From positions 62,001 to 126,000 of the forward strand of contig NZ_QMEK01000008.1 of assembly GCF_003390845.1 (NCBI RefSeq): a DNA stretch of 64,000 bases. The letters run 5' to 3'. This DNA is from Tropicimonas sp. IMCC34043. Its GTDB lineage: Bacteria; Pseudomonadota; Alphaproteobacteria; Rhodobacterales; Rhodobacteraceae. Shown here one piece after another: positions 32,802-51,333 of this stretch. Within the stretch, counting starts at the first letter, position 1, and each line of letters starts with the position of its first letter. Under the pieces are notes generated by a model. The model was not told the DNA's origin and searched no databases. It saw only the letters and a list, made by a program, of their open reading frames with translations. The position numbers and the translations under genes are program-made.

Positions 32802-33321
32802 TATTCGTCCCGTGATGGTAAATGACGTTTTAAAAACCTAGCGATTGTTCATGCCTGCACCAGCGCAAACTGCCGGCAACAGATGGCCCGGGCGTTTCCC
32901 ATGGCCTGCCTGCGTCAACCGTCGAGCGCGGCCTCGACCCGGCAGGTCGCGCGGATCCGGTGCCGAGGACATCGCCGGGCGGCGGCCGCCGCGGCGCCGA
33001 TTGTCGTTTGAGAACAGGCGGTTGCGCAGTTTCAGGGCGGGCTCTCGCGGTGTCGCGCGGCTGCGACGCCACAGATGTATTGATCATTGACTTGTTTTTT
33101 GATAGTAAATTGAATCCAGTCAATGTGAGTATTGACTGAAACCCTCGCAACCAGACTCAGCGCCCCGATGTCCGCCGCCATGCCATTCCTCCCCCAGTTT
33201 GTCCGCGCCGCCCCCGCGCAGGGGTGGCGGTATGCGGCGCCGACCGCTTGTCACCCCGCGCCCGCCCCTGCCCTTGCGCTGCGCGCGTCGAATGGACCGC
33301 GCGATTGAAAAGGAAAACGCA
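32802..33321. other. 520-base intergenic region with inverted repeat
   Basis: No gene seen. The AT-rich core around 33080-33140 stands out from the GC-rich flanks and holds a perfect inverted repeat, AGTCAAT (33118-33124) and ATTGACT (33131-33137) with a 6-base spacer. A related ATTGAC occurs at 33086-33091. This is the likely promoter/operator zone for the DUF983 gene. Confidence 0.5.
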
Positions 33322-33696
33322 ATGACCACCGGCCTCGCCATCGAAGACCGCGACCTCAATTCCGCCTTGCGGCGTGGCGCACGGCTGCGCTGCCCGCGCT
33401 GCGGCGAGGGCAGGCTGTTTCGCGGCTATATCAGGGTTGCGGGCGGCTGCGACTGCTGCGGGCTCGATTTCTCGCCCCAGCGGGCCGACGACGGTCCGGC
33501 CTATCTCGTGATCCTGATCGTCTGCCACATCGTCGGTTTCACCCTGCCGGTGATGTTCGGCTACATGCGGGACAACCCGCTGTTGCTGGCGCTGACGATG
33601 TCGACCATGGCGACGGTTCTGGCGCTGGCACTGCTGCCGCCGATCAAGGGCGCGTTCATCGCGCTTCAGTGGAGCAAGGGCATGCACGGCTTCTGA
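33322..33696 (+). CDS. DUF983 family membrane protein
   Basis: A 124-residue protein. An N-terminal zinc ribbon (CPRCGEGRLF ... CDCCGLDF, four Cys pairs) is followed by two or three membrane helices (YLVILIVCHIVGFTLPVMF, LALTMSTMATVLALALL). This is the DUF983 architecture, sometimes near cytochrome oxidase genes. ATG at 33322 follows AAAAGGAAA; an ATG 30 bases upstream is possible. It converges with the MocR gene. Its function is unknown. Confidence 0.82.
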   Translation: MTTGLAIEDRDLNSALRRGARLRCPRCGEGRLFRGYIRVAGGCDCCGLDFSPQRADDGPAYLVILIVCHIVGFTLPVMFGYMRDNPLLLALTMSTMATVLALALLPPIKGAFIALQWSKGMHGF

Positions 33697-33707
33697 AGGC
33701 CGGGGCG

Positions 33708-35075
33708 TCAGCCCATGAACGTGTTGGGCGAGAGCGCGTTGCCGAGGAAATAAAGGTTCTCGCGCAATGTCTCGCGCGAGACCGAGCCGCCGAGGCACAC
33801 CCGCAGCTTCTCGCCGGGCGCGCCCTCGACGGTGAAGGCGTCCGACGGCATCAGTCCCAGCTGCCGCCCGGCCATGCGGGCGATGACATCGGCGCGGCCG
33901 ATCCCCTCGGGCAAGGTCAGCCAGATGTTGAAGGCGTTTTCGGCGGCGGCGAACTGGATCCCGTCCAGCGCCTCGCGCGCAATGGCCTGTCGGGCGGCGG
34001 TTTCGGCGCGGATGAAGCGCCGGATCCCGTCGGCGGTTCCGTCCTCGATCCACTGGGTCGTCAGCGCCATCGACAGGGGCGAGGGCATGACCGAAAGCGC
34101 CCGGATCGCCTGCACAAGCCGGAAGGCGCAGCGGGCCGAGGGCGCGACGGTATAGGCCAGGCGCAGCCCGGCGCCGATGCATTTGGCGAGCCCGCCGATA
34201 TGCCATGTCAGGTCGGGCGCCGACAACGCGATGGGGGCGGGCGCGCGCATCGGGATGAAACCATAGGCATCGTCCTCGATCAGCGTGAGCCTTTCGGCGC
34301 GCAGCACCGCGGCCAGTTCGAGACGGCGGTCTTCCGGGATGGTCAGGGTGGTCGGATTCTGCAGCGTGGGGTTCAGATAGAGCGCCTTCGGCGCGTGACG
34401 CCCGATCGCGTCGCGCAGGGCCTCGGGCGTCACCCCTTTCTCATCCATCTCGAGCCCGACGAGTTGAACGCCGAAACGGGCCGCCAGGTTTCGAATGCCG
34501 GGATAGGTGATGCGCTCGCACAGAACCGTGTCGCCCGGTCTGGCGATGATCGACAGCACCGCCGCCATGGTGGCATGGGCCCCGGGTGTGACCGACACGC
34601 GCTCCAGCGCGGGAACCATGCCGCGCAGGCTGAGCCAGATCGAGGCGGCGGTGCGGTCGCGCTCGGTTCCGGTGGGGGACTGATAGCGCAGCAGATCGAC
34701 CAGGTTGGCCGAGACATAGCCGAGCCCTTCCTTCATCCGGCCCACAAGCTCGGGGTCGGTGGGTTCGGGCGGCATGTTCATCGACAGGTCTTCGGCGCGC
34801 CGTCGCTCGGGATCCGAGGCGGACGCCGTCGCCTTTTGCGCAACGAAGGTCCCCCGCCCGACATGGCTGTCGACCAGTCCGCGGGAGTGCGCCTCGGCAT
34901 AGGCGCGGGAGACCGTGGTGAAGTCGATGCCCAGCGTCGCGGCGAGCCGCCGCTGCGGCGGCAGACGCTCACCGCCCGAAAGCTTTCCCTCGCTGATGTC
35001 GCGCGCGAGTGCGTCGGCGATGGCAAGATAGTGCGGCTTGCCGCTTTCGGTCAGCTCGGGAACCCAGGTCTTCAT
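33708..35075 (-). CDS. MocR-family regulator (GntR HTH fused to aminotransferase), Nit1C-linked
   Basis: A 455-residue two-domain protein. Residues 10-75 are a GntR winged helix (GERLPPQRRLAATLGIDFTT, VSRAYAEAHSRGLVDS, GRGTFVAQK). The rest is a fold-type I aminotransferase with YLNPTLQNPTT, LIEDDAYGF and a PLP-binding region HIGGLAKCIGAGLRLAY, where the Lys follows GLA. It is divergent from the Nit1C operon and is the obvious regulator, sensing an amino compound or PLP-reactive metabolite. A similar MocR lies beside the second nitrilase. Confidence 0.92.
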   Translation of the reverse strand: MKTWVPELTESGKPHYLAIADALARDISEGKLSGGERLPPQRRLAATLGIDFTTVSRAYAEAHSRGLVDSHVGRGTFVAQKATASASDPERRRAEDLSMNMPPEPTDPELVGRMKEGLGYVSANLVDLLRYQSPTGTERDRTAASIWLSLRGMVPALERVSVTPGAHATMAAVLSIIARPGDTVLCERITYPGIRNLAARFGVQLVGLEMDEKGVTPEALRDAIGRHAPKALYLNPTLQNPTTLTIPEDRRLELAAVLRAERLTLIEDDAYGFIPMRAPAPIALSAPDLTWHIGGLAKCIGAGLRLAYTVAPSARCAFRLVQAIRALSVMPSPLSMALTTQWIEDGTADGIRRFIRAETAARQAIAREALDGIQFAAAENAFNIWLTLPEGIGRADVIARMAGRQLGLMPSDAFTVEGAPGEKLRVCLGGSVSRETLRENLYFLGNALSPNTFMG

Positions 35076-35129
35076 CGTCTCTCTCCTGCGCTGCCTGCCT
35101 AGCGGATTGATTCTGTCAATTGAAGGCAG

Positions 35130-35267
35130 ATTGTATGTATCGCGTCAAAACGCCCGCGACTGGTGCCGTTCCACCGCACATAAAGCGCTAACATTCCGAG
35201 CGGTTCCCTAGGGTCATGCTGAATTTTGCACCAAATGTCTGCAGTATTGATGCTAATATTGTATGTA
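35130..35267. promoter_or_regulatory. Repeated ATTGTATGTA boxes between MocR and Nit1C operon
   Basis: ATTGTATGTA occurs at 35130-35139 and 35258-35267, both on the plus strand, within the AT-rich part of the 265-base divergent gap. MocR proteins characteristically bind direct repeats, so these are candidate operators. An -35-like ATTGAT at 35282-35287 follows the second copy. Confidence 0.5.
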
Positions 35268-35340
35268 GATTAAACTGGATATTGATTCGATCAATGCGCC
35301 GTCCGCATCGTCGCCCCACACTGTGACAAGGAGCGCAAGG

Positions 35341-35823
35341 ATGCCGGCTGTAACCAAGGAAATGCACAAGGACGGAGATTTCTTCGTCAACTACGAGGAA
35401 AAGGTCTTTGAGGACGTCAAGGCCGAGGCGGGCGAAAAGGCGCTCGTCACCTTCCATACCGTCGCCTTCGAGGGTTCGATCGGGCTGGTCAATATCCTCA
35501 ATGCGATCCGCCTCAACCGCAAGGGCTACGAGACCTCGATCCTGCTCTATGGCCCGGGTGTCACCCTTGGCATTCAGCGCGGTTTCCCGACGCTCGGGGA
35601 CGAGGCCTTTCCGGGCCACCAGAACTTTGCGGTGAACCTCAAGAAGTTCATGGGCGAGGGCGGCAAGGTCTATGCCTGCCGGTTTGCGCTCCAGGCGCTC
35701 TACGGCCATGGCGAGCCCTCGCTGCTGCCCGGCATCACGCCGATCGCGCCGCAGGACGTGCTCGACTGCATCCTCCTGCACAAGAAGGCCAACGCGGTCA
35801 TTCTCGATACCTGGACGGTCTGA
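35341..35823 (+). CDS. Nit1C protein, MSMEG_0572/Sll0783 family
   Basis: A 160-residue protein of the MSMEG_0572/Sll0783 family (nitrogen-starvation response type). Recognisable stretches are [33 protein letters not shown] and [19 protein letters not shown], with a DsrE-like fold expected. ATG at 35341 follows AAGGAGCG. It is first of the Nit1C cluster, a conserved seven-gene set that in Pseudomonas is needed for growth on cyanide as nitrogen source. Its own reaction is not known. A hairpin separates it from the nitrilase gene. Confidence 0.88.
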
Positions 35824-35829
35824 CCCCTC

Positions 35830-35858
35830 GCCGGACCGGCCGCGCTGTCCGGTCCGGC
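35830..35858 (+). terminator. Intra-operon hairpin between the first Nit1C gene and nitrilase
   Basis: GCCGGACCGG (35830-35839) pairs perfectly with CCGGTCCGGC (35849-35858) around a 9-base loop, six bases after the first gene's stop. The following CGCTTTC is only weakly T-rich, so partial termination or mRNA stabilisation of the first cistron is likely. Confidence 0.6.
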
Positions 35859-35890
35859 CGCTTTCAGAAACGCGAGCCAATGGTGGTTTC

Positions 35891-36871
35891 ATGCGAACAG
35901 ACATCATCCGAGCAGCCGCGGTGCAGATTGCGCCGGATCTGACCGGGCGGGCCGGCACCATGGAACGGGTGCTGAATGCCATCGCCGAAGCCGCCGACAA
36001 GGGCGCGCAGTTCATCGTGTTCCCCGAGACCTTCGTGCCCTACTACCCCTATTTTTCTTTTGTGCTGCCGCCGATGCAGCAGGGCGCGCCGCATCTCGAA
36101 CTGATGAAGGAGGCGGTTGTCGTGCCCTCGCCCGAGACGCAGGCCGTGGCCGATGCCGCCCGCAGGCGCGGCATCGTCGTGGTGCTGGGCGTCAACGAGC
36201 GCGATCACGGATCGCTCTATAACACGCAGCTTGTCTTTGACGCCGACGGCACGCTGGCGCTCAAGCGCCGCAAGATCACCCCCACCTATCACGAGCGCAT
36301 GGTCTGGGGGCAGGGCGATGGCGCCGGGCTCAAGGTTGTCGAGACCCGGGTGGGCCGCGTCGGCGCGCTGGCCTGCTGGGAGCATTACAACCCGCTTGCC
36401 CGCTACGCGCTGATGACCCAGCACGAGGAGATCCACGCGGGCCACTATCCGGGCTCGCTGGTGGGCGACATCTTCCGCGATCAGATCGAGGTGACGATGC
36501 GCCATCACGCGCTGGAATCGGGTTGCTTTGTCGTCAATGCGACGGGCTGGCTGACCGAGGATCAGATCGCGCAGATCCACCCCGACGCCACGCTGCAAAA
36601 GGGCCTGCGCAGCGGCTGCATGACCTGCATCATCTCGCCCGAGGGGCGGCATCTGGCCGAACCGCTGACCGACCGCGAAGGCATCCTGATCGCCGATCTG
36701 GACATGAAGCTGGTCGCCAAGCGCAAACGCATGATGGACAGCGTCGGCCATTACGCCCGGCCGGAGCTTCTGAGTCTGGTTCACGATTCGCGGCCCGCCG
36801 CCACGCGCCATGTGATCGAGGCCGCGCCGCTGCCCGACCTCGAAGCGGCGGAGGATGCGCAGGATGCCTGA
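35891..36871 (+). CDS. Nit1C nitrilase (carbon-nitrogen hydrolase; cyanide/nitrile)
   Basis: A 326-residue nitrilase-superfamily enzyme with the full catalytic set: Glu in [11 protein letters not shown], Lys in [12 protein letters not shown] and Cys in [13 protein letters not shown]. The C-terminal [12 protein letters not shown] is typical of the nitrilase branch. Homologues (NitC) in Pseudomonas are required for cyanide assimilation. Start ATG 35891; the gene ends inside the radical SAM start. It would hydrolyse a nitrile, possibly a cyanohydrin-type adduct of cyanide, to acid and ammonia. Confidence 0.92.
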
Positions 36872-37976
36872 GATGTCGCATTCCGATCTGATCAATGCGC
36901 TGCAGACCCACGGCATGCGGATGATCGATCCGCGGGTGGGGCAGGAAAGCCGCCGCGGCGGTGCGGGCCCGTCGGACCACAAGGCCGTGACCCTCGGCGA
37001 AACCACGGTGATGGTGCCGGTTCACACGGCGCCGAGTTTCGACAGCCCGTTTCTGGCCGAGGCGCCCGATGCCACCGGCCTGGCCCGGCTGACCCGCGAT
37101 GGCGTCGAGGTCGGCGAGATCCGCTTTCCGACCCGGGCGAAGTTCTATCGGCTGAAGACGGCCGACGGCATTCCCTACAGCCATATCGCCACGCTCCACT
37201 CGCGGGACGTGCTGGCGACGACGGTGCTTCAGACCTGCATCCGCTATGAAAGCCGCAAGAAGACCTGCCAGTTCTGCTCGATCGGGCAGAGCCTCGCGGC
37301 GGGGCGCACCATTGCCCACAAGACGCCGGAGCAACTGGCCGAGGTCGCGAAAGCCGCCGTGGAGCTCGATGGGGTGACCCATATGATCCTGACCACCGGC
37401 ACGCCCGCCGGCAAGGATCGCGGCGCCAGGGTGCTGGCCGAGAGCGCCCGTGCCATCAAGGCCGCGGTCGACCTGCCGCTGCAGGGACAGTGCGAACCGC
37501 CCGAGGACGACGTCTGGCACCAGACCATGTTCGATGCCGGGATCGACACGTTGGGGATGCATCTGGAGGCGGTGACGCCCGAGGTGCGCGAACGGATCAT
37601 GCCGGGCAAGGCATCGGTGCCGCTGGAGAAGTATTTCTCCAGCTTCGAGGCGGCGGTGAAGGTCTTCGGGCGCGGGCAGGTCTCCACCTATATCCTCGCC
37701 GGGCTGGGGGACACGCGCGAGGCCATCCTCGAGATGGGGCAGCGGCTTTGCGACATCGGGGTCTATCCCTTCGTTGTTCCCTTCGTGCCGATCTCGGGCA
37801 CGCCGCTGGAAAGCCACCCGGCGCCCTCGACCGCGTTCATGGCCTCGATCCTGCGGCCGCTGGGACAGATGATCGTCGCGGCGGGCATCCGGTCGGCCGA
37901 GATGAAGGCGGGCTGCGGAAAATGCGGGGCCTGTTCGGCGTTGTCCACCTATGAAAAGCTGCGGGTGCCGGCATGA
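36864..37976 (+). CDS. Nit1C radical SAM protein, MSMEG_0568 family
   Basis: A 370-residue radical SAM-like protein. The cluster cysteines are spaced unusually: [19 protein letters not shown] gives C-x9-C-x2-C instead of CxxxCxxC. A second set, [11 protein letters not shown] (CxxCxxC), lies near the C terminus and could hold an auxiliary cluster. [14 protein letters not shown] resembles the GGE region. ATG 36864 is chosen (GGAGG at 36850-36854); ATG 36855 is possible. It overlaps both neighbours, so it is tightly coupled to nitrilase and GNAT. Its reaction is unknown. Confidence 0.88.
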
Positions 37977-38524
37977 TCGAGTGCGAGCCGCGCCAGTTCG
38001 CCTGCCCGGGCTACTACATCCGCGCCGCCTCGAAGCGGTTCGAGGCCGAGGGGGCCGCCATCCTGCGCCGCCGCGTCTTTGTCGAGGAGCAGCGGATCTT
38101 CCCGACCCACGACCGGGACGAGATCGACCTGATCGCCACCCATCTGGTGGCGCTGTCGACCTATGCGCACGAAGCCGATCAGGTCGTAGGCACCGTGCGC
38201 GTCCACGAGGAAGCGCCGGGCGTCTGGTGGGGCTCGCGCCTTGCGGTCGACAGCGAGTTTCGCGCCGTGGGCCGGCTCGGGGCAGAGCTGATCCGTCTGG
38301 CGGTTTCGACCGCAAACGCGCGGGGCTGCACGCGGTTTCTGGCCCATGTGCAGATGCAGAACGTGGTGCTGTTCCGCCGCCTGCACTGGCATCCGCTGGA
38401 GCCGGTGACCATCCATGGCGCGCCCCACATGCGGATGCAGGCGGATCTGGCCCACTACCCGCCCTGCGCCGATCCGGTGGCCGGATGGTATCACCGCCCG
38501 CGGGCCAGAGGGACGGGCCGATGA
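37973..38524 (+). CDS. Nit1C GNAT-type N-acyltransferase, MSMEG_0567/Sll0786 family
   Basis: A 183-residue GNAT protein. GTVRVHEEAPGVWWGSRLAV and AVGRLGAELIRLAVSTANARG supply the acetyl-CoA-binding region (R-x-x-G-x-L form). FLAHVQMQNVVLFRRLHWHP is the family's C-terminal beta-bulge block. It overlaps both neighbours by ATGA. It presumably acylates a Nit1C intermediate; the substrate is unknown. Confidence 0.88.
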   Translation: MIECEPRQFACPGYYIRAASKRFEAEGAAILRRRVFVEEQRIFPTHDRDEIDLIATHLVALSTYAHEADQVVGTVRVHEEAPGVWWGSRLAVDSEFRAVGRLGAELIRLAVSTANARGCTRFLAHVQMQNVVLFRRLHWHPLEPVTIHGAPHMRMQADLAHYPPCADPVAGWYHRPRARGTGR

Positions 38525-39501
38525 ACCTTGCCGGGACGCCTTCTGCCGTCGCGGCGCTTGCCGCGGCCCTGCGGGATCATCCCTCGATCCGCTCGAAACT
38601 CGGCATCGCGCGGGCGACCCGGGCGCTTGGACTGACGGCGTCCAGCGACGGCCGCCCCGGCGACGACGCCGCGGTCCTGCCCGGGCCTGCGGGATACGAT
38701 CTGCTGGCGGGCGAGGGGTTCATCCCCGCCTTTGTCCGGGACGACCCCTGGTTCGCCGGCTGGTGTGCGGTGATGGTCAATCTGTCGGACATCGCGGCCA
38801 TGGGCGGACGGGCCACCGCCATCGTCGATCAGATCTGGGCGCCCGATGCCGAAACCGCCGCGCCGATGATGGCGGGGCTGCGCGATGCCTCGGCCGCCTA
38901 TGGCGTGCCGCTTGTCGGCGGGCACACGAATTTCGCCGCAGGCGAGCTTGGACTTGCCGCCACGGTGCTGGGCCGCGCCAAGGCGGTGATCTCGAGCTTC
39001 GATGCCCGGCCGGGCGATCTGCTGCTGGCGGCGATCGACCACCGGGGCGCGTACCGCAATTTCGACAACTTCTTCGCCGCAGCCGAGGCGCCGCACGACC
39101 GGTTGCGCGGTGATCTCGCCCTGCTGCCAGACCTGGCCGAGGCCGGGCTGGTGCGCGCGGGAAAGGACATCAGCCAGGGCGGCATCGCCGGCACCGCGCT
39201 GATGCTGGCGGAGTGTTCCGGCGTCGGGATCGACATCGACCTCTCCAGCATTTCGCTTCCAAGGGGCGTTGCGATGGACCGTTGGCTGCGCAGCTTCCCG
39301 AGCTTCGGGTTTCTGCTGTCGGTCGACCCGGAAAAGGCGAATGCGGTCTGTGCCCGGTTCTGCGCGCGCGGGATCGAGGCCTGCGCAATCGGGCAGGTCG
39401 CCCGGGGGTCCGCAGTGTCGCTCGCCGACAGGACCGGCCGCGCCCTGTTCTGGGACCATGCCAAAACCCCCTATCTCGACCTTGGAGACCGCCGTGCCTG
39501 A
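38521..39501 (+). CDS. Nit1C AIR synthase-like protein, Sll0787 family
   Basis: A 326-residue protein of the PurM/SelD/HypE-like ATP-binding fold. GRPGDDAAVLPG is the N-terminal Gly-Asp-Asp-Ala motif, MVNLSDIAAMGGRA the second dimer-interface motif, and GGHTNFAAGELGLAATVLG the core. GKDISQGGIAGTALML is also typical. Family members activate a carbonyl or carboxyl group with ATP. ATG 38521 lies in the GNAT stop. Its partner substrate in Nit1C is unknown. Confidence 0.88.
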   Translation: MNLAGTPSAVAALAAALRDHPSIRSKLGIARATRALGLTASSDGRPGDDAAVLPGPAGYDLLAGEGFIPAFVRDDPWFAGWCAVMVNLSDIAAMGGRATAIVDQIWAPDAETAAPMMAGLRDASAAYGVPLVGGHTNFAAGELGLAATVLGRAKAVISSFDARPGDLLLAAIDHRGAYRNFDNFFAAAEAPHDRLRGDLALLPDLAEAGLVRAGKDISQGGIAGTALMLAECSGVGIDIDLSSISLPRGVAMDRWLRSFPSFGFLLSVDPEKANAVCARFCARGIEACAIGQVARGSAVSLADRTGRALFWDHAKTPYLDLGDRRA

Positions 39502-39781
39502 AACATTCTGGACCGTCCGCTGGCCCGATGGCGCCGAAGAAAAGCTTTATTCGCCCTCGAGCGTCGTCGCCGAAATGTTCCAGCCCGGCCGCCGCTACCC
39601 GGTGCCCGAGTTCCTGTGGCGGGCGCGGGTCGCGATGGAGCGCGCCTCGAACCGGGTCCAACGCAAATATGGCTTCGCCTGCACATCGGCGATGGAGCAA
39701 CTCGACCGAATCGAGACGCGCATCGCGGGCATCGAGGATCCGGAGGGCGCCGAAATCGCCTGCCTGGACATCTCACAATGA
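39494..39781 (+). CDS. Nit1C small protein, MSMEG_0570 family
   Basis: A 95-residue protein beginning at GTG 39494, eight bases before the end of the AIR synthase-like gene. TFWTVRWPDGAEEKLYSPSS and RYPVPEFLWRARVAMERASNR are the family blocks (nitrogen-starvation response MSMEG_0570). It is soluble, with no known motif. Its presence with the other six genes makes the Nit1C set complete. Confidence 0.85.
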   Translation: MPETFWTVRWPDGAEEKLYSPSSVVAEMFQPGRRYPVPEFLWRARVAMERASNRVQRKYGFACTSAMEQLDRIETRIAGIEDPEGAEIACLDISQ

Positions 39782-39792
39782 GGACAGAGACG

Positions 39793-41064
39793 ATGAAAGA
39801 CACCCAGACACCGTATATCCCCGTCGTGATCGTCGGCGGCGGGCAGGCCGGTCTCTCCACCGCCTATTGCCTGGAGCAGAAGGGGATCGCCTCGGTCATC
39901 TTCGAGCGGCACGAGAAATTCCATTCCTGGCGGGTGAACCGCTGGGACAGCTTCTGTCTTGTGACGCCGAACTGGCAGTGCCGTCTGCCGGACTTCCACT
40001 ATGACCGCGACTATGGCGGCACCAATCCCGACGGCTTCATGCTGAAAGACGAGATCACCGAGTACCTCGACGCCTTCGCCGCGCGCTTCGAGCCCGACAT
40101 TCACGAGCATGTCGAGGTCACCCGCGTGGCGCCCCGCGCGCAGGGCGGCTTTGCCGTCGAAACCTCGATCGGTGACTGGGTCTGCGATCAGGTCGTCATC
40201 GCCACGGGCGGCTACGACGCGCCCATCGAACCCGATTACGCCCGCAACCTCTCGCCCGAGATCTTCCAGATGCATTCGGTCGACTACCGCAATGTCGGCC
40301 AGTTTCCGGACGGCGGCGTGCTGATCGTCGGCACCGGGCAGTCCGGTGTCCAGCTGATGGAGGATTTCATTCGTGCCGGCCGCGACGTGCATCTGGCGGT
40401 CGGCCCCGCGCCGCGCAGCCCGCGCAAGTATCGCGGGCGCGATGCCACGGACTGGCTGTACGATGCCGGACACTATGCCATCACCATCGACAGCCATCCC
40501 GACCCGGTGAAGGCGATGACCCAGACCAACCACTTCATGTCCGGGCGCGACGGCGGCAAAGAGATCGACCTGCGCCGGTATCACGTCGATCATGGCGTCG
40601 AGCTCTATGGCTCGCTCGCGGGGATGCAAGGGAGCGAGGTCGCCTTCCTGCCCGATCTGACACGGAACCTCGACGACGCCGACCGCTCCTATGTCGGGAT
40701 CCGCGAGCAGATCGATGCCTATATCGCCCGGGAGGGGATCGACGCCCCGGAGGAGCCGCCCTTTGCCAAGCTCTGGTCCCCGGAGGTCGAACGCACGACC
40801 CTCGACCTTGCCGCTTCGGGCATCACCTCGGTTCTCTGGGCCATCGGGTTCCGGCCGGACTATTCCTGGATCGAGGCCGACGTCTTCGACGCCCGCGGCA
40901 AGCCGGTCTTCAACCGCGGCGTGACCGGGCATCCGGGGCTGCATTTCATCGGCCTCGGCTGGCTGAACACCTGGGGGTCCGGCCGCTTTCTCGGGATCGA
41001 GGAAGACAGCCGATACCTCGCCGATCAGATTGCGGCCCAGCTCGTCGCAGCGGTGTCCGCCTGA
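39793..41064 (+). CDS. Nit1C flavin-dependent oxidoreductase, MSMEG_0569 family
   Basis: A 423-residue flavoprotein like flavin monooxygenases. VVIVGGGQAGLSTAYCLEQ is the FAD motif, VLIVGTGQSGVQLMEDF the NADPH motif, and VVIATGGYDAP and GHPGLHFIGLGWLNTWGSGR are further family features. ATG 39793 has GAGGA at good spacing, while ATG 39778 would give the ATGA overlap used at other junctions; both are possible. It likely oxygenates an organic nitrogen compound in the Nit1C pathway. Confidence 0.9.
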   Translation: MKDTQTPYIPVVIVGGGQAGLSTAYCLEQKGIASVIFERHEKFHSWRVNRWDSFCLVTPNWQCRLPDFHYDRDYGGTNPDGFMLKDEITEYLDAFAARFEPDIHEHVEVTRVAPRAQGGFAVETSIGDWVCDQVVIATGGYDAPIEPDYARNLSPEIFQMHSVDYRNVGQFPDGGVLIVGTGQSGVQLMEDFIRAGRDVHLAVGPAPRSPRKYRGRDATDWLYDAGHYAITIDSHPDPVKAMTQTNHFMSGRDGGKEIDLRRYHVDHGVELYGSLAGMQGSEVAFLPDLTRNLDDADRSYVGIREQIDAYIAREGIDAPEEPPFAKLWSPEVERTTLDLAASGITSVLWAIGFRPDYSWIEADVFDARGKPVFNRGVTGHPGLHFIGLGWLNTWGSGRFLGIEEDSRYLADQIAAQLVAAVSA

Positions 41065-41843
41065 TGCTGGCGCTGCGGCCGCACCCCTGCCCCGTGCCCG
41101 AACGCCGCGAAGCGCTGCGCCTGGGCATGATGCAGCTCTCTCCGTTCGGGTTGTCGGAGCCATGGCTGCTGCGCCATCTGGGCGATCGTCACTGGGAGCT
41201 GATCGCCGAGGCCAGCGGCCTGAGCGGGACCGCCTTTCGCGATGACACCGGGCGCCCGGTCTATGCCGCCTTCTGTGCGACCTCGCTGCATCTCGAACGG
41301 CATCGCGACGCGCGCCTCGGTGCAAGCCTCGAGATCGTCTCGACGCTCCACCAGGTTGCGCCGCACCGGATCGGGTCGGTGCATCACCTCTTCGGGCCGG
41401 AGGGATGCCTTGGCCGGCTGTCGATGATCAGCTGCTTTCTCAGCCACGACGAAAGCGGCTCCAACCGGCGCCTGCTGCGCAACCGGCTGCCCGGGTTGCG
41501 GGCGCTGCCGCCGGCACCCGCCGGTCTTGCGGGGTTTCACGAAAGCGCAAGGGTCTGCGCCCGGCGCATGCGCCCTGCCCCGGCGACGGCGCCCGAACTG
41601 GCGCGCTACACGCCGGTGCCGGCGCACGATTTCAACGCCGCCGGTCTGCTCTATTTTCCCACCTTCTCGCGGGCTGCCGAAATGGCGCAACCGGCGCAGG
41701 CGCCATTGCTTTCGCGCGAGGTCGTCTATCTGGGAAATCTCGACACCGGCGAGACCATTTCCGCGCGGGCCGCGTCGGACTGTGTTCTGCTGGTCGCGGG
41801 AGAGCATCTGCTTGGATCTGTGCGAACCCGTGTCGCTTCCTAG
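41064..41843 (+). CDS. LnmK-like / Pnap_2097 family hot-dog-fold protein
   Basis: A 259-residue protein resembling the LnmK/Pnap_2097 family, in which LnmK is an acyltransferase/decarboxylase with two hot-dog domains. Seen blocks are LRLGMMQLSPFGLSEPWLLRHLGDRHW, here cited as MQLSPFGLSEPWL, DDTGRPVYAAFC and YHPTFSR-like LLYFPTFSRAAE. Its ATG overlaps the flavoprotein stop by one base, so it is cotranscribed as an eighth gene. No acyl carrier protein is nearby. It may use an acyl-CoA; role unknown. Confidence 0.68.
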   Translation: MLALRPHPCPVPERREALRLGMMQLSPFGLSEPWLLRHLGDRHWELIAEASGLSGTAFRDDTGRPVYAAFCATSLHLERHRDARLGASLEIVSTLHQVAPHRIGSVHHLFGPEGCLGRLSMISCFLSHDESGSNRRLLRNRLPGLRALPPAPAGLAGFHESARVCARRMRPAPATAPELARYTPVPAHDFNAAGLLYFPTFSRAAEMAQPAQAPLLSREVVYLGNLDTGETISARAASDCVLLVAGEHLLGSVRTRVAS

Positions 41844-42021
41844 ACGGTGCGCTTATTTCGACGCGGTTGGGTCGTCCGCGTCAGAGGCGCTGGTCAGTGT
41901 CCGAGGATGCGGATCCCGGCGGTCTGACGGTGGGGGTCGGGTGACAGGATCCGCTCCCCGAAGAGCCTGAGGCGCTTGGGTTCTCGGGGGGCAGAGCATG
42001 GTTTCCGGACAATTCGGACGG

Positions 42022-42162
42022 TCAGACAGTCATTCCGGCCATGTTCATCAACAGGCGAAACAGAACCGCGACAATCGCCAGCGCCGCCACACTGCCGATC
42101 CAAATCAGGACCATCCAGCCGACCCGCCGCAGCCACAGATTTTGGCGACCGGCACCAGACAT
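42022..42162 (-). CDS. DUF2474 small subunit of bd-type oxidase
   Basis: A 46-residue protein with one membrane helix (WMVLIWIGSVAALAIVAVLF) after a basic tail (RQNLWLRRVGW). DUF2474 proteins are encoded behind cydAB/cioAB and act like CydX. Its ATG overlaps the cioB stop by one base (TGATG). It likely stabilises the oxidase in the membrane. Confidence 0.85.
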   Translation of the reverse strand: MSGAGRQNLWLRRVGWMVLIWIGSVAALAIVAVLFRLLMNMAGMTV

Positions 42163-43169
42163 CAGTGATACCCCTCCCCGACCTTCACCTTGCCTCGGAA
42201 TACGTAATAGGACCACGCGGTGTAGGCGAGGATGAACGGTATGATGAACAGCGCGCCGACCAGGGTGAAACCGAGGCTCTGAGGTGGAGACGCCGCATCC
42301 CAGATCGAGATACCCGGCGGGACAATGTTCGGCCACAAGCTGATCGCCAGGCCCGAATACCCAAGGAACAACAGCGCCAGCGACAAGATGAACGGGGCGG
42401 CATGACGATCGCCCGACAGCGTCCTGAGAAGGATCCATGTCGCCAATGCGACCAGAATCGGCACCGGTGCGAAGAAGAACAGGTTTGGCAGTGCAAACCA
42501 GCGTGCCGCGATGTCGGAATTTGCGTAAGGCGTCCAAAGGCTGACGATCGCGATAGTCGCCAACACCGCCAAGGTGATTGGTCGACCGAGCTGGCGCATA
42601 CGCCGCTGAAGATCGCCCTCGGTCTTCATCACCAGCCAGGTCGCGCCGAGCAAGGCGTATGCGAGCAGCATGCCGACGCCGGTAAACAGGCTGAACGGTG
42701 AAAGCCAGTCGAACATGCCACCGGCATATGAGCCGTCCCGAACTTCGAAGCCGTTGATGAACGCGCCAATGGCAAGCCCTTGAGAAAAGGTCGCGATGTA
42801 CGAACCCCACATGAAGGCCTTGTCCCAGAAAGCCTTGTGCCCTTCGTCTGCCTTGAAGCGAAATTCGAACGCCACGCCGCGCCAGATCAAACCCGCCAGC
42901 ATCAACATCAGCGGGAAATACAATGCGCTGAGAATGACCGAGTAGGCGAGTGGAAATGCGGCAAGCAACGCGGCACCCCCCAACACGAGCCACGTCTCGT
43001 TTCCATCCCAGACCGGCGCAACACTATTGACCATGGTGTCGCGGAAATCGCGGTCTCGGACAAAGGGGAAGAGGATGCCGATCCCGAGGTCGAAACCGTC
43101 CATGATGACATACATCATGAGGCCGAACCCGATGATGATTGCCCAGACAAGGGGAAGATCGATGCCCAT
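42162..43169 (-). CDS. cioB: Cytochrome bd-type (cyanide-insensitive type) oxidase subunit II
   Basis: A 335-residue membrane protein with about eight or nine helices. DGFDLGIGILFPF, VAPVWDGNETWLVLGG and GLIWRGVAFEFR are CydB/CioB hallmarks (DGNETW is near-invariant). It pairs with subunit I encoded 14 bases upstream, transferring electrons from quinol to oxygen. Base composition is visibly lower in GC than the genes on either side. Confidence 0.93.
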   Translation of the reverse strand: MGIDLPLVWAIIIGFGLMMYVIMDGFDLGIGILFPFVRDRDFRDTMVNSVAPVWDGNETWLVLGGAALLAAFPLAYSVILSALYFPLMLMLAGLIWRGVAFEFRFKADEGHKAFWDKAFMWGSYIATFSQGLAIGAFINGFEVRDGSYAGGMFDWLSPFSLFTGVGMLLAYALLGATWLVMKTEGDLQRRMRQLGRPITLAVLATIAIVSLWTPYANSDIAARWFALPNLFFFAPVPILVALATWILLRTLSGDRHAAPFILSLALLFLGYSGLAISLWPNIVPPGISIWDAASPPQSLGFTLVGALFIIPFILAYTAWSYYVFRGKVKVGEGYH

Positions 43170-43183
43170 GGTCTTTCTCCTCG

Positions 43184-44599
43184 CTACCGGATCGCCGGAT
43201 CGATGTTGTCGGGCGCGGCCGACAACGGCCGTGCGGGCCGTTGCGACTTGTCCGGATCATGCGGCGGCGTCTCGCCCTCGCTGCTGGCAGGTCCCTTCGC
43301 GACCAGTTTCAGCATGTAGCTGACCCCGGTACCGAACACCGCGAAATACATGACCATGAAGACGACAAGGGTTGTCGAGAGCGCCAGCGCGGAATGGTTC
43401 GAGACGCCGTCAGCGGTGCGCATCACGCCATAGACAAGCCACGGCTGGCGACCGATTTCGGTTGTATACCACCCCGCCAGGATCGCGATCAGACCGGATG
43501 GCCCCATCCATATTGCGAGGCGGAGGAACCACTTTCGCTCGTACAATCCCTTGCGCCACCGCAACCAGAGGCTCCAGGCTCCGAGCAGAAGCATGAGCAT
43601 GCCCAGACCGACCATGACCCGGAACGACCAGAAGGCGACTGTCGAGTTCGGGCGATCCTCGGGTGCGAATTCACTCAGACCCTTGTACTGGCCATCGAGG
43701 CTATGCGTCAGAATGAGCCCCCCGAGCCTTGGAATCTCGACCTTGTAGAGCGTCTCTTCAGCTTCCATGTCGGGCCAACCGAACAAGATGAGCGGCACGC
43801 CGGCACCCGGTTCGTTGCGCCAGTGGCCTTCCATGGCCGCTATCTTGGCCGGTTGATGCTCAAGCGTGTTCAGCCCGTGCAAATCGCCGACGAAGATCTG
43901 CACGGGTGTCACGATCAACACCATCCACATGGCCATGGAAAACATCGTCCGGACATGAGCATCCTTGCGACCCCGCAAGAGATGCCAGGCACCCGAAGCG
44001 CCAACAAAAAGAGCCGTCGCAAGGAATGCCGCCACGGTCATATGGGCGAGCCGGTATGGGAAGGACGGATTGAAAACGACCTTGAACCAGTCGACGGGCA
44101 CGACGACGTCGTTGACGATTTCGAACCCTTGTGGCGTCTGCATCCAGCTGTTCGATGCCAGTATCCATGTAGCCGAAATAAGGGTGCCGACCGCCACCAT
44201 GATGGTCGCAAAGAAATGAAGGCCCGGCCCGACCTTATTCCAGCCAAACAGCATCACACCGAGAAAGCCTGCTTCGAGGAAGAAGGCCGTCAACACTTCA
44301 TAGGCGAGGAGCGGCCCCGTAATCGATCCGGCAAACGCCGAAAAGTAACTCCAGTTGGTGCCAAACTGGTAGGCCATGACCAGCCCCGACACGACGCCCA
44401 TGGCAAAGTTGACCGCGAATATCTGCGACCAGAAATGATAGAGATCGCGATAAACCCTGTCCTTTTTCCAAAGCCACAGCCCCTCGAGCACGGCAAGATA
44501 ACTTGCCAGGCCGATCGTGATCGCAGGGAAGATGATGTGAAAGGAGATGGTGAACCCGAACTGGATGCGTGCCAGCTCCAGAGCCGTCAGTCCGAACAT
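43184..44599 (-). CDS. cioA: Cytochrome bd-type (cyanide-insensitive type) oxidase subunit I
   Basis: A 471-residue subunit. SFHIIFPAITIGLASY carries an early heme-ligand His, GRQPW is the conserved motif after the quinol loop, and FWSFRVMVGLGM holds other conserved residues. At 471 residues it lacks the long quinol-loop insertion of E. coli CydA (about 520 residues), as in CIO-type oxidases that resist cyanide. ATG 44599 has AGGAGG seven bases upstream. Downstream of a nitrilase, it would let the cell respire while degrading cyanide. Confidence 0.92.
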   Translation of the reverse strand: MFGLTALELARIQFGFTISFHIIFPAITIGLASYLAVLEGLWLWKKDRVYRDLYHFWSQIFAVNFAMGVVSGLVMAYQFGTNWSYFSAFAGSITGPLLAYEVLTAFFLEAGFLGVMLFGWNKVGPGLHFFATIMVAVGTLISATWILASNSWMQTPQGFEIVNDVVVPVDWFKVVFNPSFPYRLAHMTVAAFLATALFVGASGAWHLLRGRKDAHVRTMFSMAMWMVLIVTPVQIFVGDLHGLNTLEHQPAKIAAMEGHWRNEPGAGVPLILFGWPDMEAEETLYKVEIPRLGGLILTHSLDGQYKGLSEFAPEDRPNSTVAFWSFRVMVGLGMLMLLLGAWSLWLRWRKGLYERKWFLRLAIWMGPSGLIAILAGWYTTEIGRQPWLVYGVMRTADGVSNHSALALSTTLVVFMVMYFAVFGTGVSYMLKLVAKGPASSEGETPPHDPDKSQRPARPLSAAPDNIDPAIR

Positions 44600-44638
44600 T
44601 TTTCAGCCTCCTGTGGCCGCGAGGCTTCCGTGTCATCC

Positions 44639-45587
44639 TCAGCCGGGAGGCAACGTGTTCCCCCCCAAACGTGACGGCAGATTTCGCGCGTGTGTCGACG
44701 GAAAGCTGGAAGATATCCGGTCGCGCATAGTGGCCAACGACATCAAGATCGTACTTTCCGCGCGGGATCGCCCGACGGTCGATTTCCGCGACCTTGATCG
44801 TCTCGCCGGTGAAATCGGGTTCGACGAGCACATTGCCAAACGGATCGACAATGCACGACCCGCCCCGGATCAGGACGGTAGCCGGATCATCCCCCTGAAT
44901 GGGTGCGACGTCGACCGGACCATCGCCGCGCGTGAGATACTGACAGGCCGAGACGACAAAGCAGCGCCCTTCGAGCGCGATGGTTCGCATTGTCGGAAGC
45001 CAGGCGTCGCGGTCGTCAACGGTGGGCGCACAATAGAGTTCGATGCCTTGCGCGTACATGGCCGCCCGGAGAAGCGGCATATAGTTCTCCCAGCAGATCA
45101 CGCTGCCGATCCGCCCGATCGGTGTATCAACCACGCCGATGGTAGAGCCGTCGCCAAAGCCCCAGACGAGCCGCTCCAAAGCGGTCGGCATCAGCTTGCG
45201 ATGTTTGTAGAGCAACTTGCCGGAAGGGGCGTAAGTGAGGGTGGCGCAGTACAGCGTCCCGCCATCGCGTTCGATGACACCGACGACCATGTGGACGCCG
45301 TTGTCCCGCGCGATCTCGCCAATCCGCGACGCTTCCGCTCCGGGCACATCAATGGCGCTTTCGAAATAGCGTCGAAAGTCCTCGCGGCCTTCGGCACTGC
45401 GCAACCCGAGCCGGGCGCCAAAGTCCAAACCCTTCGGATAGCCGCCGACAAAAGCCTCTGGAAAGACGACGAGATCGGCGCCATTCGCTGCGGCGTCGCG
45501 GGTCAGCTCACCGAGCTTGGTCAGAGTCTTGGGGGTATCGAAAAGAACCGGAGCGGCCTGAACGACCGCGGCCTTGATGAGGGACAT
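44639..45587 (-). CDS. Second nitrilase, with apparent frameshift in a G7 tract near the 3' end
   Basis: The N-terminal 310 residues are a clear nitrilase: Glu in VFPEAFVGGYPKG, Lys in KHRKLMPTALER and Cys in ICWENYMPLLR, with VGHYARPDIFQLSVDTR. Read literally the frame runs to 44298, 302 bases into cioA, with a nonsense-like tail. In a run of seven G (plus-strand C at 44660-44666) removing one base gives an ending GGNTLPPG and a TGA at 44639, 315 residues, just before the cioA ribosome site. The frameshift is either a sequencing error or real. It follows MocR2 by 16 bases. Confidence 0.88.
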
Positions 45588-45603
45588 GACGACCTCTCTG
45601 ACG

Positions 45604-46980
45604 TTAAACCACCGCGCGCGTGCCCAGTGAGGGCTGCGTGATAAGGCTGGCAAGTTGAGTGAGGCCGTCTTCCAGATCTCCTCGATCCGGCGCGACACCA
45701 AGAGAGATCCTGACGGCTTCGACAGGATGCGCGACGGTGGCGAAGGCCGACGCAGGCACAATCGAAACGCCGGCGCGATCTGCATTTTCGGCAAACTCCG
45801 AGGCGCGCCAGTGGTCGGGCAGACGCAGCCATAGATGATGTCCCTGCGGATCCGCAGCAAAGCCCTGCGCACCGAGTATCAGGGCTGCAAGCTTTTGACG
45901 TTCGGTATTCTCGGCACGAATCGCGCTGGTGATCTCGTCCAGAGTTCCGTCCATGATCCAACGGCTCGCCAATGCTGACATCAGCGGCGGCGCCATAAGG
46001 ATCGTGGCACGCAATACGCTCGCAAGGCGCATTGCTTTGGGGCTGCTCGGGGCAACGACATAGGCGACGCGAAGCGCCGGACTCGCGCATTTGGACAGAG
46101 TCGCAATGTGCCAGGTAATGTCGGGGGCCAGTTCCGCCATCGAAACAGTTCGTTCAAGCCTCAGTGGCGCGTAAGGATCGTCTTCGATGATTGCGACGCC
46201 GTGCTTGCGGGCGATTGCCGTCAAAGCCCGTCTGCGATCCTCCGGAAGGGTCGCCGTCGTCGGATTGTCGATGCTGGGAATAACGTAGAGTGCCTTCGGC
46301 ATACGCTCGCGGCAGGCCTTCTCGAATTCGTCCGGGATGATACCTTTCTCGTCCATCCCCAACGGCTGGATCACGATCCCCTTTTGAGTGGCGACAGCCT
46401 TGAGACCGGGATAGGTCATCGCTCCGGCCGCAACCGCATCACCGCGATCAAGCAGCAGCTCGCAAACCGCGAATAGTGCGCTTTGCGCCCCCCCCGCGAT
46501 CACGATGCGGTCGGCTGCAACAGCCTCCATCCGAGGACCGAGCCAGCGCGCCGCAGCCTGTCTGTCAGGCTCGGATCCCGTGCTTTCCTGATAGTGGAGG
46601 CTGAGCAGGCCACGAGGACTGCCGAGAAGCCCCGCAATGCCGTGGGGAAAGATCTTGCTGAAATCGACATCCGACGGCTGCGAGGGGATGTTCATACTGA
46701 GGTCTATCAACGGGTGCGACTGGCCACGAGACTGACCCTCCAGCGCCTCGCTGACGAAAGTGCCCCGCCCTGCCTGAGCCTCGACAAGTCCGCGACGGCG
46801 CGCTTCGTTGAAAGCCCGCGTCACCGTCGTCAGATCGACGCCAAGCGCCTCGGCAATGGCCCGTTGCGCCGGCAGACGTTCCCCTTTTGCGACCCTCCCG
46901 GACCGGATATCGGCTTCCAGAGCCTCGACGATACCGAGGTATTTCATCCTCGCGTTTTCGACCAGCCGCGGCTTCCACAT
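45604..46980 (-). CDS. MocR-family regulator of the nitrilase-cio operon
   Basis: A 458-residue GntR-aminotransferase fusion. The winged helix has [20 protein letters not shown] and [19 protein letters not shown]. The aminotransferase domain has [21 protein letters not shown] and [17 protein letters not shown], with the PLP Lys after LS. It resembles the MocR next to the Nit1C operon. It is cotranscribed with the nitrilase downstream on the same strand and has a promoter region of its own with repeated TGTATGG. Confidence 0.92.
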
Positions 46981-47417
46981 GTGGCCCTCTCAAACTGTAT
47001 GGCTTATTAGCGTACGGTTCGTATAGTTTGTATGGTACACAAACGGAAGAGGGAATGGGGTGAAGCCCGACGTTCACGGAAACACGGCACCGGACAATCC
47101 GGCTTCTCCGCCAGTCGCCACCCTATCCGACGACCCATTCGCGGAGAGGTATGAAATGCGTCGTCACGGCTCAAATGCACAAATCGGCCGATGGCCGGGG
47201 TCCCCCGCGACAAACCGTTGTCGCCATCCCCTCCAGGCGATGGCGTCGAGGGTTGGGGTGGCGGGATTGTATGCTGCGTCTGAGAGATTTGTCTGCGGGA
47301 TCCGTCGCAGGATCGGGGCGCGATGCGGCGAATGAATACCGCTCGGGCATGGACCCGAGCTGCAAGACCCGCCCATGTCGGGACGCTCCGCGGTCGCGGA
47401 GCGCCCCGTCTGACGGA
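46981..47417. other. Intergenic region: MocR promoter boxes and RTX-gene hairpins
   Basis: No convincing gene. At the left, TGTATGG occurs at 46996-47002 and 47029-47035, 33 bases apart, in an AT-rich promoter zone for MocR. At the right two perfect stems lie past the RTX stop: GCTCGGG/CCCGAGC at 47341-47360 and CGCTCCGC/GCGGAGCG at 47384-47403, likely transcription end structures. A short plus-strand frame between (about 47060-47335) shows no known domain. Confidence 0.5.
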
Positions 47418-51020: not shown

Positions 51021-51030
51021 GAATGTCTCG

Positions 51031-51333
51031 CTATGAATGATGAATGCAGCGGCCGGCTGCGTCTGAGAGGGTCGGCAGGCCGCGCCCTTTGGCGCCCGGA
51101 TCCGGCGGCCAGGCAGGGGGGCTGTTCGGCGAAGCGGGCCAGGCGGGACGATGCGAAACACCACGCAGGGATTCGGCGATCTCGATCGCCATTGTCTTGT
51201 CGGAAGGAAATGGAACCTGTCCGGTGATGGCTGCGACCCCGCCATCGACCACGATACCGACGTCGGTCGAATGCAGGCTGGGGTCGAAATCCAGCTCCTT
51301 CGGGATGACCTGTGTTATTTCCCTGTCGCCCAT
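51031..51333 (-). pseudogene. BON-domain protein remnant
   Basis: Residues 1-59 from ATG 51333 read as a BON domain (PKELDFDPSLHSTDVGIVVD, then VAAITGQVPFPSDKTMAIEI). After GV at about 51157 the frame turns into Pro/Ala-rich noise and stops at 51031. BON proteins of this type normally carry two or three domains, so this is a broken copy. No rejoining frame was seen. The stretch 51334-51556 holds nothing recognisable. Confidence 0.6.

Follow-up and report, generated by a model that had tools for sequence, protein, structure and literature searches.

Two gene sets face each other between 33.2 and 47.0 kb of the 64,000-nucleotide stretch of DNA analysed here (the window), which spans positions 62001-126000 of its contig in the 4.6 Mb genome of Tropicimonas sp. 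IMCC34043. One set holds the nitrilase gene cluster Nit1C and the other a second nitrilase gene together with the genes of a cyanide-insensitive oxidase (CIO), and the locus raises the question of whether they answer to cyanide together or are neighbours by chance. An earlier note on this DNA had proposed one regulon that detoxifies cyanide or nitriles, assimilates the nitrogen and keeps respiration going. The analysis instead favours, with a probability of about 0.6, an accessory cyanide island of two separately inherited mobile modules, each under its own predicted cyanide sensor dependent on pyridoxal phosphate (PLP), that were brought together; the relatives of the two modules differ.

Module A consists of mocR1 and nitBCDEFGH-Pnap_2097, and module B is mocR2-nit4-cioA-cioB-DUF2474. 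The mechanism that we infer covers the DNA binding of the MocR proteins, the cyanide signal, the substrates and the joint response. In module A, the Nit1C pathway would operate, with NitC hydrolysing a nitrile formed from cyanide and releasing ammonia; in module B, the cyanide-insensitive bd oxidase would keep respiration going, and the NIT4-type nitrilase would convert 3-cyanoalanine to aspartate and ammonia. A PLP-binding MocR of its own would control each module through operators with TGTATG as their core, and cyanide, probably through reaction with the MocR-held PLP, would relieve repression or activate transcription.

Gene content of the two modules

The genes of the island and the adjoining open reading frame (ORF) are as follows.

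33199..33696, + strand: DUF983 membrane protein ORF, convergent with mocR1 (PF06170, 81 bits; true start probably ~33292-33322)
33708..35075, - strand: mocR1, MocR/GntR regulator of the Nit1C module, in the Nit1C-linked clade (PF00392 and PF00155)
35341..35823, + strand: nitB, MSMEG_0572/Sll0783 family (TIGR04044, 282.6 bits; cut-off 109.85)
35891..36871, + strand: nitC, Nit6803 family nitrilase (TIGR04048, 547.5 bits; cut-off 502.6)
36873..37976, + strand: nitD, MSMEG_0568 radical SAM protein (TIGR04043, 590.1 bits; cut-off 303.7)
37973..38524, + strand: nitE, GNAT N-acetyltransferase (TIGR04045, 217.5 bits; cut-off 68.45)
38521..39501, + strand: nitF, AIR synthase-like (TIGR04049, 420.5 bits; cut-off 321.3)
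39494..39781, + strand: nitG, MSMEG_0570 family, GTG start (TIGR04042, 113.3 bits; cut-off 79.85)
39793..41064, + strand: nitH, MSMEG_0569 flavin-dependent oxidoreductase (TIGR04046, 569.5 bits; cut-off 498.35)
41064..41843, + strand: Pnap_2097 family, LnmK-like, eighth gene of the Nit1C operon, overlapping nitH (TIGR04099, 185.1 bits; cut-off 125)
42022..42162, - strand: DUF2474 small CIO subunit (PF10617, 62.2 bits)
42162..43169, - strand: cioB (PF02322)
43184..44599, - strand: cioA, CIO-type subunit I with short Q-loop (PF01654)
44604..45587, - strand: nit4, NIT4-type nitrilase, stretch used (CN_hydrolase; 365.8 bits to NIT4 6i00)
45604..46980, - strand: mocR2, MocR/GntR regulator leading the nit4-cio operon (PF00392 and PF00155)

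The seven Nit1C genes stand in the order B-C-D-E-F-G-H, all on the + strand, and each product scores above its NCBIfam cut-off, which bears out the earlier description of a complete and ordered cluster. mocR1 is divergent from nitB, the + and - sets converge with 178 bp between their last stop codons, and the DUF983 ORF, whose 3' end and that of mocR1 are 11 bp apart, lies outside the interval 33708-46980 to which the earlier note had confined the island. Spacing suggests co-transcription within each gene set; for the second nitrilase, described earlier as cotranscribed with cioAB-DUF2474, the adjacency of mocR2-nit4-cioA-cioB-DUF2474 on one strand stands, and the common transcript is suggested by that spacing. 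The assignment of a MocR regulator to each operon also holds, as both proteins combine GntR with Aminotran_1_2 domains. As in the known Nit1C cluster, all seven genes are in order; the island differs in having a divergent MocR in place of the sigma-54 regulator NitA (which does not define Nit1C), in the added Pnap_2097 gene, and in the lack of a sigma-54-like site (TGGCAY-N5/6-TTGC) in the last 200 bases upstream of nitB.

The earlier note's placing of both modules among known cyanide systems is supported by these families and by published precedent. (Papers given by PMC number are cited from excerpts, and statements resting on them are limited to those excerpts.) In strain CECT5344 (Pseudomonas pseudoalcaligenes/oleovorans), cyanide cannot be assimilated without NitC, and resistance comes from cioA3B3 (PMC11049912). 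Module A might still be read as a biosynthetic cluster, in which radical SAM, GNAT, AIR-synthase-like and flavin enzymes act with Pnap_2097/LnmK and cyanide comes in only incidentally or as a by-product: apart from NitC, none of the seven Nit1C proteins is a nitrilase, and simple nitrile hydrolysis seems to offer these six no obvious role; the eighth gene has its match in a family of acyltransferase/decarboxylase type, and the 2005 description of Nit1C assigned it no pathway (PMC1199592). However, genetic evidence from two Pseudomonas strains shows that growth on cyanide depends on NitC (PMC11049912), and we consider the biosynthetic reading highly improbable.

The second nitrilase is NIT4-like by sequence, and activity on 3-cyanoalanine is predicted. 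Nit4 scores 365.8 bits against Arabidopsis thaliana NIT4 (PDB 6i00), 186.8 bits against 3wuy, which we take to be Nit6803, and at most 152.7 bits against cyanide dihydratases, so that its closest solved relative is NIT4 rather than NitC or a cyanide dihydratase; it is 38% identical to the nitC product of the same island. Its assignment to the Nit6803 family was rejected, since it reaches 217.6 bits against a cut-off of 502.6 and NIT4 scores higher. The nit4 ORF reads ~300 nt into cioA in another frame. Among relatives, nit4 overlaps cioA by 13 nt in loci L156, L064 and L066 and ends before cioA in L067 and L068. In the window, the change of frame comes after the conserved core and close to a run of G (window 44298-44680); it may be a sequencing error or a real shift. 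The genome has another NIT4-like nitrilase, 55% identical to nit4, on contig C6 (536492-537454).

The oxidase is CIO-type by sequence, and cyanide-resistant respiration is predicted. CioA has no long Q-loop: in a phmmer alignment that splits at 317/381, nothing aligned to residues 318-380 of Escherichia coli bd-II, and no stretch of the query lies between the two halves at those chain residues. CioA is 73% identical to a Pseudomonas aeruginosa plasmid gene annotated as cioA, and the genome's other bd oxidase (contig C11) is 38% identical to CioA over query residues 6-313. The DUF2474 gene behind cioB (PF10617, as listed) gives the arrangement of CIO subtype C, with which DUF2474 goes (PMC5322542); the island shares with this subtype the short-Q-loop CioA, CioB and DUF2474, and differs from it in having nit4 and mocR2 ahead.

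The CECT5344 cluster cioA3B3-nit4-mocR (BN5_1899-BN5_1912) likewise brings together a CIO, a NIT4-type nitrilase and a MocR. It has a divergent mocR and 14 genes, including many amino-acid genes, whereas the island carries a compact five-gene unit led by mocR2. Its authors assign the MocR a repressor role, with the cio cluster, including Nit4, constitutive without MocR according to unpublished proteomics supported by mutant growth (PMC8567248). Nit1C is located elsewhere in that genome and has the sigma-54-type regulator NitA (PMC11049912, PMC8567248). The earlier view of Nit1C and CIO as separate loci in Pseudomonas is thus right for Nit1C, which lies apart in CECT5344, and overlooks that the linkage of a nitrilase with cioAB and mocR was already published in those two papers. 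Joining a nitrilase to a CIO is nothing new, and the parts are known; what sets the island apart as a variant is how compactly it is paired with Nit1C, together with the apparent MocR wiring of Nit1C and the operator core common to both modules.

Two nitrilases of different classes could also mark a nitrile island, in which nitriles from natural sources (3-cyanoalanine, cyanohydrins, nitriles of plants or algae) would be both inducer and substrate and the CIO would guard against cyanide released as these nitriles are broken down. The induction of CECT5344 Nit1C proteins, and not of CIO, by 3-cyanoalanine (PMC8567248) is consistent with this. In contrast, Nit4 and CIO of the same strain were raised by a cyanide-containing residue and not by 3-cyanoalanine (PMC8567248), and the essential role of NitC in cyanide assimilation argues in the same direction. 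A nitrile island is considered improbable, and cyanide is the most likely inducer.

MocR regulators and operator-like sites

Each module of the proposed cyanide island has a MocR-type regulator (PF00392 GntR and PF00155 Aminotran_1_2), and the two are 40% identical. MocR1 adjoins 40 of 41 other Nit1C loci (from 40 genomes, as G951 has two; some contigs are <20 kb). In a maximum-likelihood tree of 59 MocR rows, a branch sets the 44 Nit1C-linked ones apart (94/74; 97/98 once the cio-linked MocR of Methylocystis is included), and MocR2 is found in a 10-row clade of CIO/nit4-linked MocRs (100/99), apart from the MocR1 clade. The 14 cio rows are 13 CIO/nit4-linked MocRs and the second MocR of G475, which has no cioA in its stretch; L250_1301m was dropped from tree and alignment as the same gene as L246_8831p, and the alignment also leaves out the far G424_C1_24218p. 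The 13 MocR-linked CIO/nit4 loci are the window, G513, L063-L067, L156, L157, L159, L242, L244 and L246/L250; L063, L065 and L157 have nit4 without cioA (L063 and L157 both being Sinorhizobium), and L068 (little flank), L158 (nit4 in two pieces and a partial cioA) and G475 were left out.

The Schiff-base lysine and the PLP-site tyrosine (K298 and Y271 of MocR1) are K and Y in 58/58 aligned MocRs, comprising 44/44 Nit1C-linked and 14/14 other proteins. A precedent for cyanide sensing by such a protein is MpaR of P. aeruginosa, a MocR-type regulator that controls the cyanide-responsive ccoN4; changes at its predicted PLP lysine or tyrosine abolish or lower ccoN4 expression, with the mutant proteins being less abundant, and its authors propose PLP-cyanohydrin as the signal (PMC10790758). 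Like the island, MpaR-ccoN4 pairs a PLP regulator of MocR type with a neighbouring gene for a cyanide-linked subunit of a terminal oxidase; it differs in that the oxidase subunit is of cbb3 type and the motif is an ATCTGAT palindrome (PMC10790758).

Three operator-like sites precede the modules.

35118..35139: distal MocR1 operator-like site, TTGAAG..ATTGTATG; pattern found in 18/22 family-type loci
35258..35295: proximal MocR1 operator-like site, ATTGTATG-N-A-N-ATTG-type repeats ~11 bp apart; upstream footprint
46996..47035: MocR2 operator-like site, TGTATGG-N26-TGTATGG; 6/6 relatives have TGTATGG in the 110 bases ahead of mocR2

The sequence ATTGTATG occurs within 450 bases upstream of nitB in 22/22 family-type loci, the window counted, and the mocR2 upstream regions read TGTATGG-N-CATACA-N-TGTATGG with small changes, the middle element being degenerate in the window. 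TGTATG is common to both footprints. It was found in 20/20 family-type nitB upstreams of 250 bases, where 2.33 were expected from dinucleotide shuffles (with the window and the near-identical G1041 left out of this 6-mer set, and L161, which has 7 bases upstream, out of all upstream sets), and in 6/6 mocR2 upstreams of 110 bases, where 0.43 were expected (window left out). Ranked by excess, it comes second in the nitB set, 0.1 behind the overlapping ATTGTA, and first in the mocR2 set. Further, TGTATG lies upstream of 11/13 MocR-linked CIO/nit4 loci and of 0/5 CIO loci without a neighbouring MocR, in searched stretches that vary in length and that cover the intergenic DNA of L067 and L246 only in part.

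The MocR1 pattern (at most one mismatch) and the MocR2 pattern each have one match in the whole genome, on the island, and the reversed control patterns have none in the whole genome; that both patterns are single-copy and on the island fits a joint response. The recognition helices of MocR1 and MocR2, located by an aligned helix presumed to be the MocR recognition helix, are alike, one reading FTTVSRAYAEA. Judged from sequence, the like helices and TGTATG fit a common half-site, but the two operators differ in spacing, and cross-binding is at most putative.

The nitB upstream regions of the family type differ from those of Nit1C loci outside the family. A sigma-54-like TGGCAY-N5/6-TTGC site precedes nitB in 18/23 loci outside the family (e.g. 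L163/L164 and L220/L221) and in 0/22 family-type loci, which include the window, Alloyangia and Sagittula; the promoter class thus changes with the same kind of MocR neighbour. In the excerpted literature on Nit1C, NitA is named as the regulator and no MocR tied to Nit1C was found. Promoter scans of the two regulator promoters and of the DNA between the modules gave no sigma-70-like site. The terminator-like matches were a pair on the + strand at the distal MocR1 site (35089-35130; 0.2 expected) and one on the - strand inside DUF2474 (0.5 expected).

Linkage and origin of the modules

Nit1C itself, called by TIGR04043 over its cut-off, was found in 10/385 genomes drawn from the class, 16/398 from the phylum and 19/394 from the family, with the window's genome counted each time. 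The nearest named Nit1C relatives located on plasmids belong to Alloyangia, Sagittula and Tabrizicola. Its linkage to CIO recurs on an Alloyangia pacifica plasmid (NZ_CP022191), on a Methylocystis iwaonis plasmid with a rearranged Nit1C, and in genome G513; as their arrangements differ, the three look like separate joinings. The Alloyangia plasmid has the same mocR1-Nit1C-Pnap_2097 and DUF983 next to mocR-cioAB-DUF2474, and differs in that no nit4 was found, that a 5-aminolevulinate synthase (ALAS) and a related PLP enzyme are present, and that the cio module lies on the other side of Nit1C, pointing away. Among companions of module A, Pnap_2097 is near Nit1C in 12/19 family loci and 3/22 other loci, and DUF983 is within 3 kb of Nit1C in 4/19 family and 1/22 other loci.

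Module B has relatives of its own. The best 80 of 504 nit4 relatives confirmed in a genome scan were compared, many of the fetched stretches being short, and the six nearest among these (74-85% identity) are from Sinorhizobium, Neoroseomonas, Hyphomicrobium, Sphingomonas, Azospirillum and Microvirga. Both mocR2 and DUF2474 accompany nit4-cioA in Neoroseomonas (L064) and Sphingomonas (L066); in Azospirillum (L067), the neighbouring MocR is 43% identical to MocR1; in Microvirga (L068), nit4-cioA has almost no upstream flank; and Sinorhizobium and Hyphomicrobium have mocR2-nit4 without cioA. The whole mocR2-nit4-cioAB-DUF2474 unit is present on a plasmid of Agrobacterium sp. T29, ~57 kb from Nit1C, and cioAB, nit4 and mocR are together in the window, L064, L066 and L156. 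A 2024 pan-genome study states, in its excerpted text, that databases hold no cluster homologous to cioA3B3-nit4 (PMC11049912); compact units of that make-up exist in several orders, the likeness being one of make-up. In Rhizobium jaguaris, a decayed nit4-like piece lies directly before cioA (L245 5786-6000), and on a Rhizobium rhizogenes K84 plasmid, two other annotated nitrilase genes lie ~2.6 kb from cioA (L243 1282-3423).

Module B looks imported, since nit4 is closer to genes of other genera and plasmids (82-88% in Sinorhizobium, Neoroseomonas, Hyphomicrobium, Sphingomonas and two plasmids) than to those of host-family genomes (best match 64% among 294 others). The one congener drawn, G756, has neither Nit1C nor a CIO-type cioA, and carries only a 38% bd oxidase. 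Module B is also lower in GC content than most module A genes; as proof of separate import this break is weak, because 47-57 kb is equally low (0.621). The island's contig (C15; 137,964 bases, not closed) carries RepC, RepB and ParA-type genes in tandem, that is, repABC replication and partition genes (L253 9095-12585, from ORFs and Pfam), and is therefore likely a plasmid or chromid. A plasmid DNA search with 33-57 kb in near mode returned no record covering 80% of the query.

Several results weigh against two cyanide modules that were brought together under paired sensors, and some of them would be expected if unrelated accessory modules had merely met on one plasmid, with Nit1C responding to nitrogen limitation or natural nitriles and the CIO to low oxygen or respiratory stress. 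The co-occurrence check within 15 kb suggested by the earlier note found cioA near Nit1C in 0/19 family and 1/22 other loci (1/41 overall, some contigs being short). A CIO-type cioA, called by identity of at least 40% and alignment past query residue 420, is carried by 12/19 Nit1C-positive family genomes (among them G951, which is 62% complete) and by 22/37 Nit1C-negative ones, the latter hand-chosen from listed genomes with the fragmented or less complete G753, G757 and G768 left out. A general Nit1C-cioAB linkage, and co-occurrence as proof of partnership, were accordingly rejected. Moreover, Nit1C is present in 0/6 genomes with the nearest nit4 loci, and cioA stands beside nit4 in only 4 of the best 80 of 504 relatives. 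The lower GC content of module B would also suit unrelated neighbours.

The regulatory evidence is qualified in similar ways. Each MocR has an operator of its own and the two operators differ in spacing, so that the single regulon of the earlier note is conjectural, and a joint response would fit the footprints. The half-site may be common to one MocR subfamily by ancestry, and TGTATG was chosen once the sequences had been seen. It is not among the top 12 6-mers of 23 non-family nitB upstreams (TTGTATG occurs in 7/23, 0.37 expected), and the searched part of the intergenic DNA at L067 and L246 holds no TGTATG. In the tree, other cio-labelled rows fall outside the MocR2 clade, the label needing two changes; CIO oxidases can also answer to other regulators, e.g. 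of MarR type in Chromobacterium according to an excerpted source; and the C-terminus of Nit4 is unsure because of the frame offset. Nevertheless, a chance meeting does not account well for the recurrence of the linkage, differently ordered, in Alloyangia, Methylocystis and G513, for an operator core common to both modules with both patterns unique to the island, or for a NIT4-type nitrilase within the CIO module itself. We consider chance neighbours rather unlikely, and retain the reading of two separately inherited cyanide modules that were brought together.

ALAS genes, DUF983 and other neighbours

Seven of the 13 MocR-linked CIO/nit4 loci, two of them Sinorhizobium, have an ALAS gene in the fetched stretch. 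The ALAS genes located are listed below.

L066 7261-8478
L067 5359-6552
L063 6012-7208
L157 8156-9376
L242 3106-4287
L159 8965-10146
L168 3568-4812

The two ALAS proteins tested, from G513 and Alloyangia, exceed the TIGR01821 cut-off, and both have TGTATG sites upstream of the ALAS gene or its operon. No ALAS gene was found in the window. Agrobacterium sp. T29 has aminotransferases near cio instead of ALAS, as does CECT5344 (PMC11049912). Because PLP reacts readily with cyanide (PMC10790758), spare copies of PLP enzymes such as ALAS may replace those that cyanide has disabled, and ALAS genes beside CIO/nit4 loci suggest that these islands replace poisoned enzymes.

In a wider form of the proposal, MocR1 and MocR2 would be a pair of PLP-based cyanide sensors acting on TGTATG, and this word would mark an alphaproteobacterial cyanide regulon that combines respiration (CioAB), nitrogen recovery (Nit1C and Nit4), resupply of cofactor (a spare ALAS) and DUF983; this extension is tentative and, in our view, somewhat doubtful. 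If it were true, the cyanide control of whole modules would be readable from sequence. Independently of it, the two dedicated MocR lineages, with conserved operator-like sites that are single-copy in this genome, provide small systems for testing PLP as a cyanide-sensing group.

DUF983, called COX4-like in PMC4013037, is found beside mocR1 also on the Alloyangia and Sagittula plasmids. It recurs beside Nit1C or CIO at L159 11378-11752, L160 11545-11844, L161 6571-6933, L244 5197-5649 and L250 14530-14937.

Rfam gave no matches in window 33000-48000, and no tRNA was found within the window. An RTX-type calcium-binding repeat protein adjoins mocR2 (window 47418-49220). Another gene of the window (49401-51245) encodes a beta-CASP metallo-hydrolase whose best NCBIfam match is the type VII CRISPR Cas14 model at 332 bits (cut-off 800); it is probably an ordinary RNase of the metallo-beta-lactamase fold.

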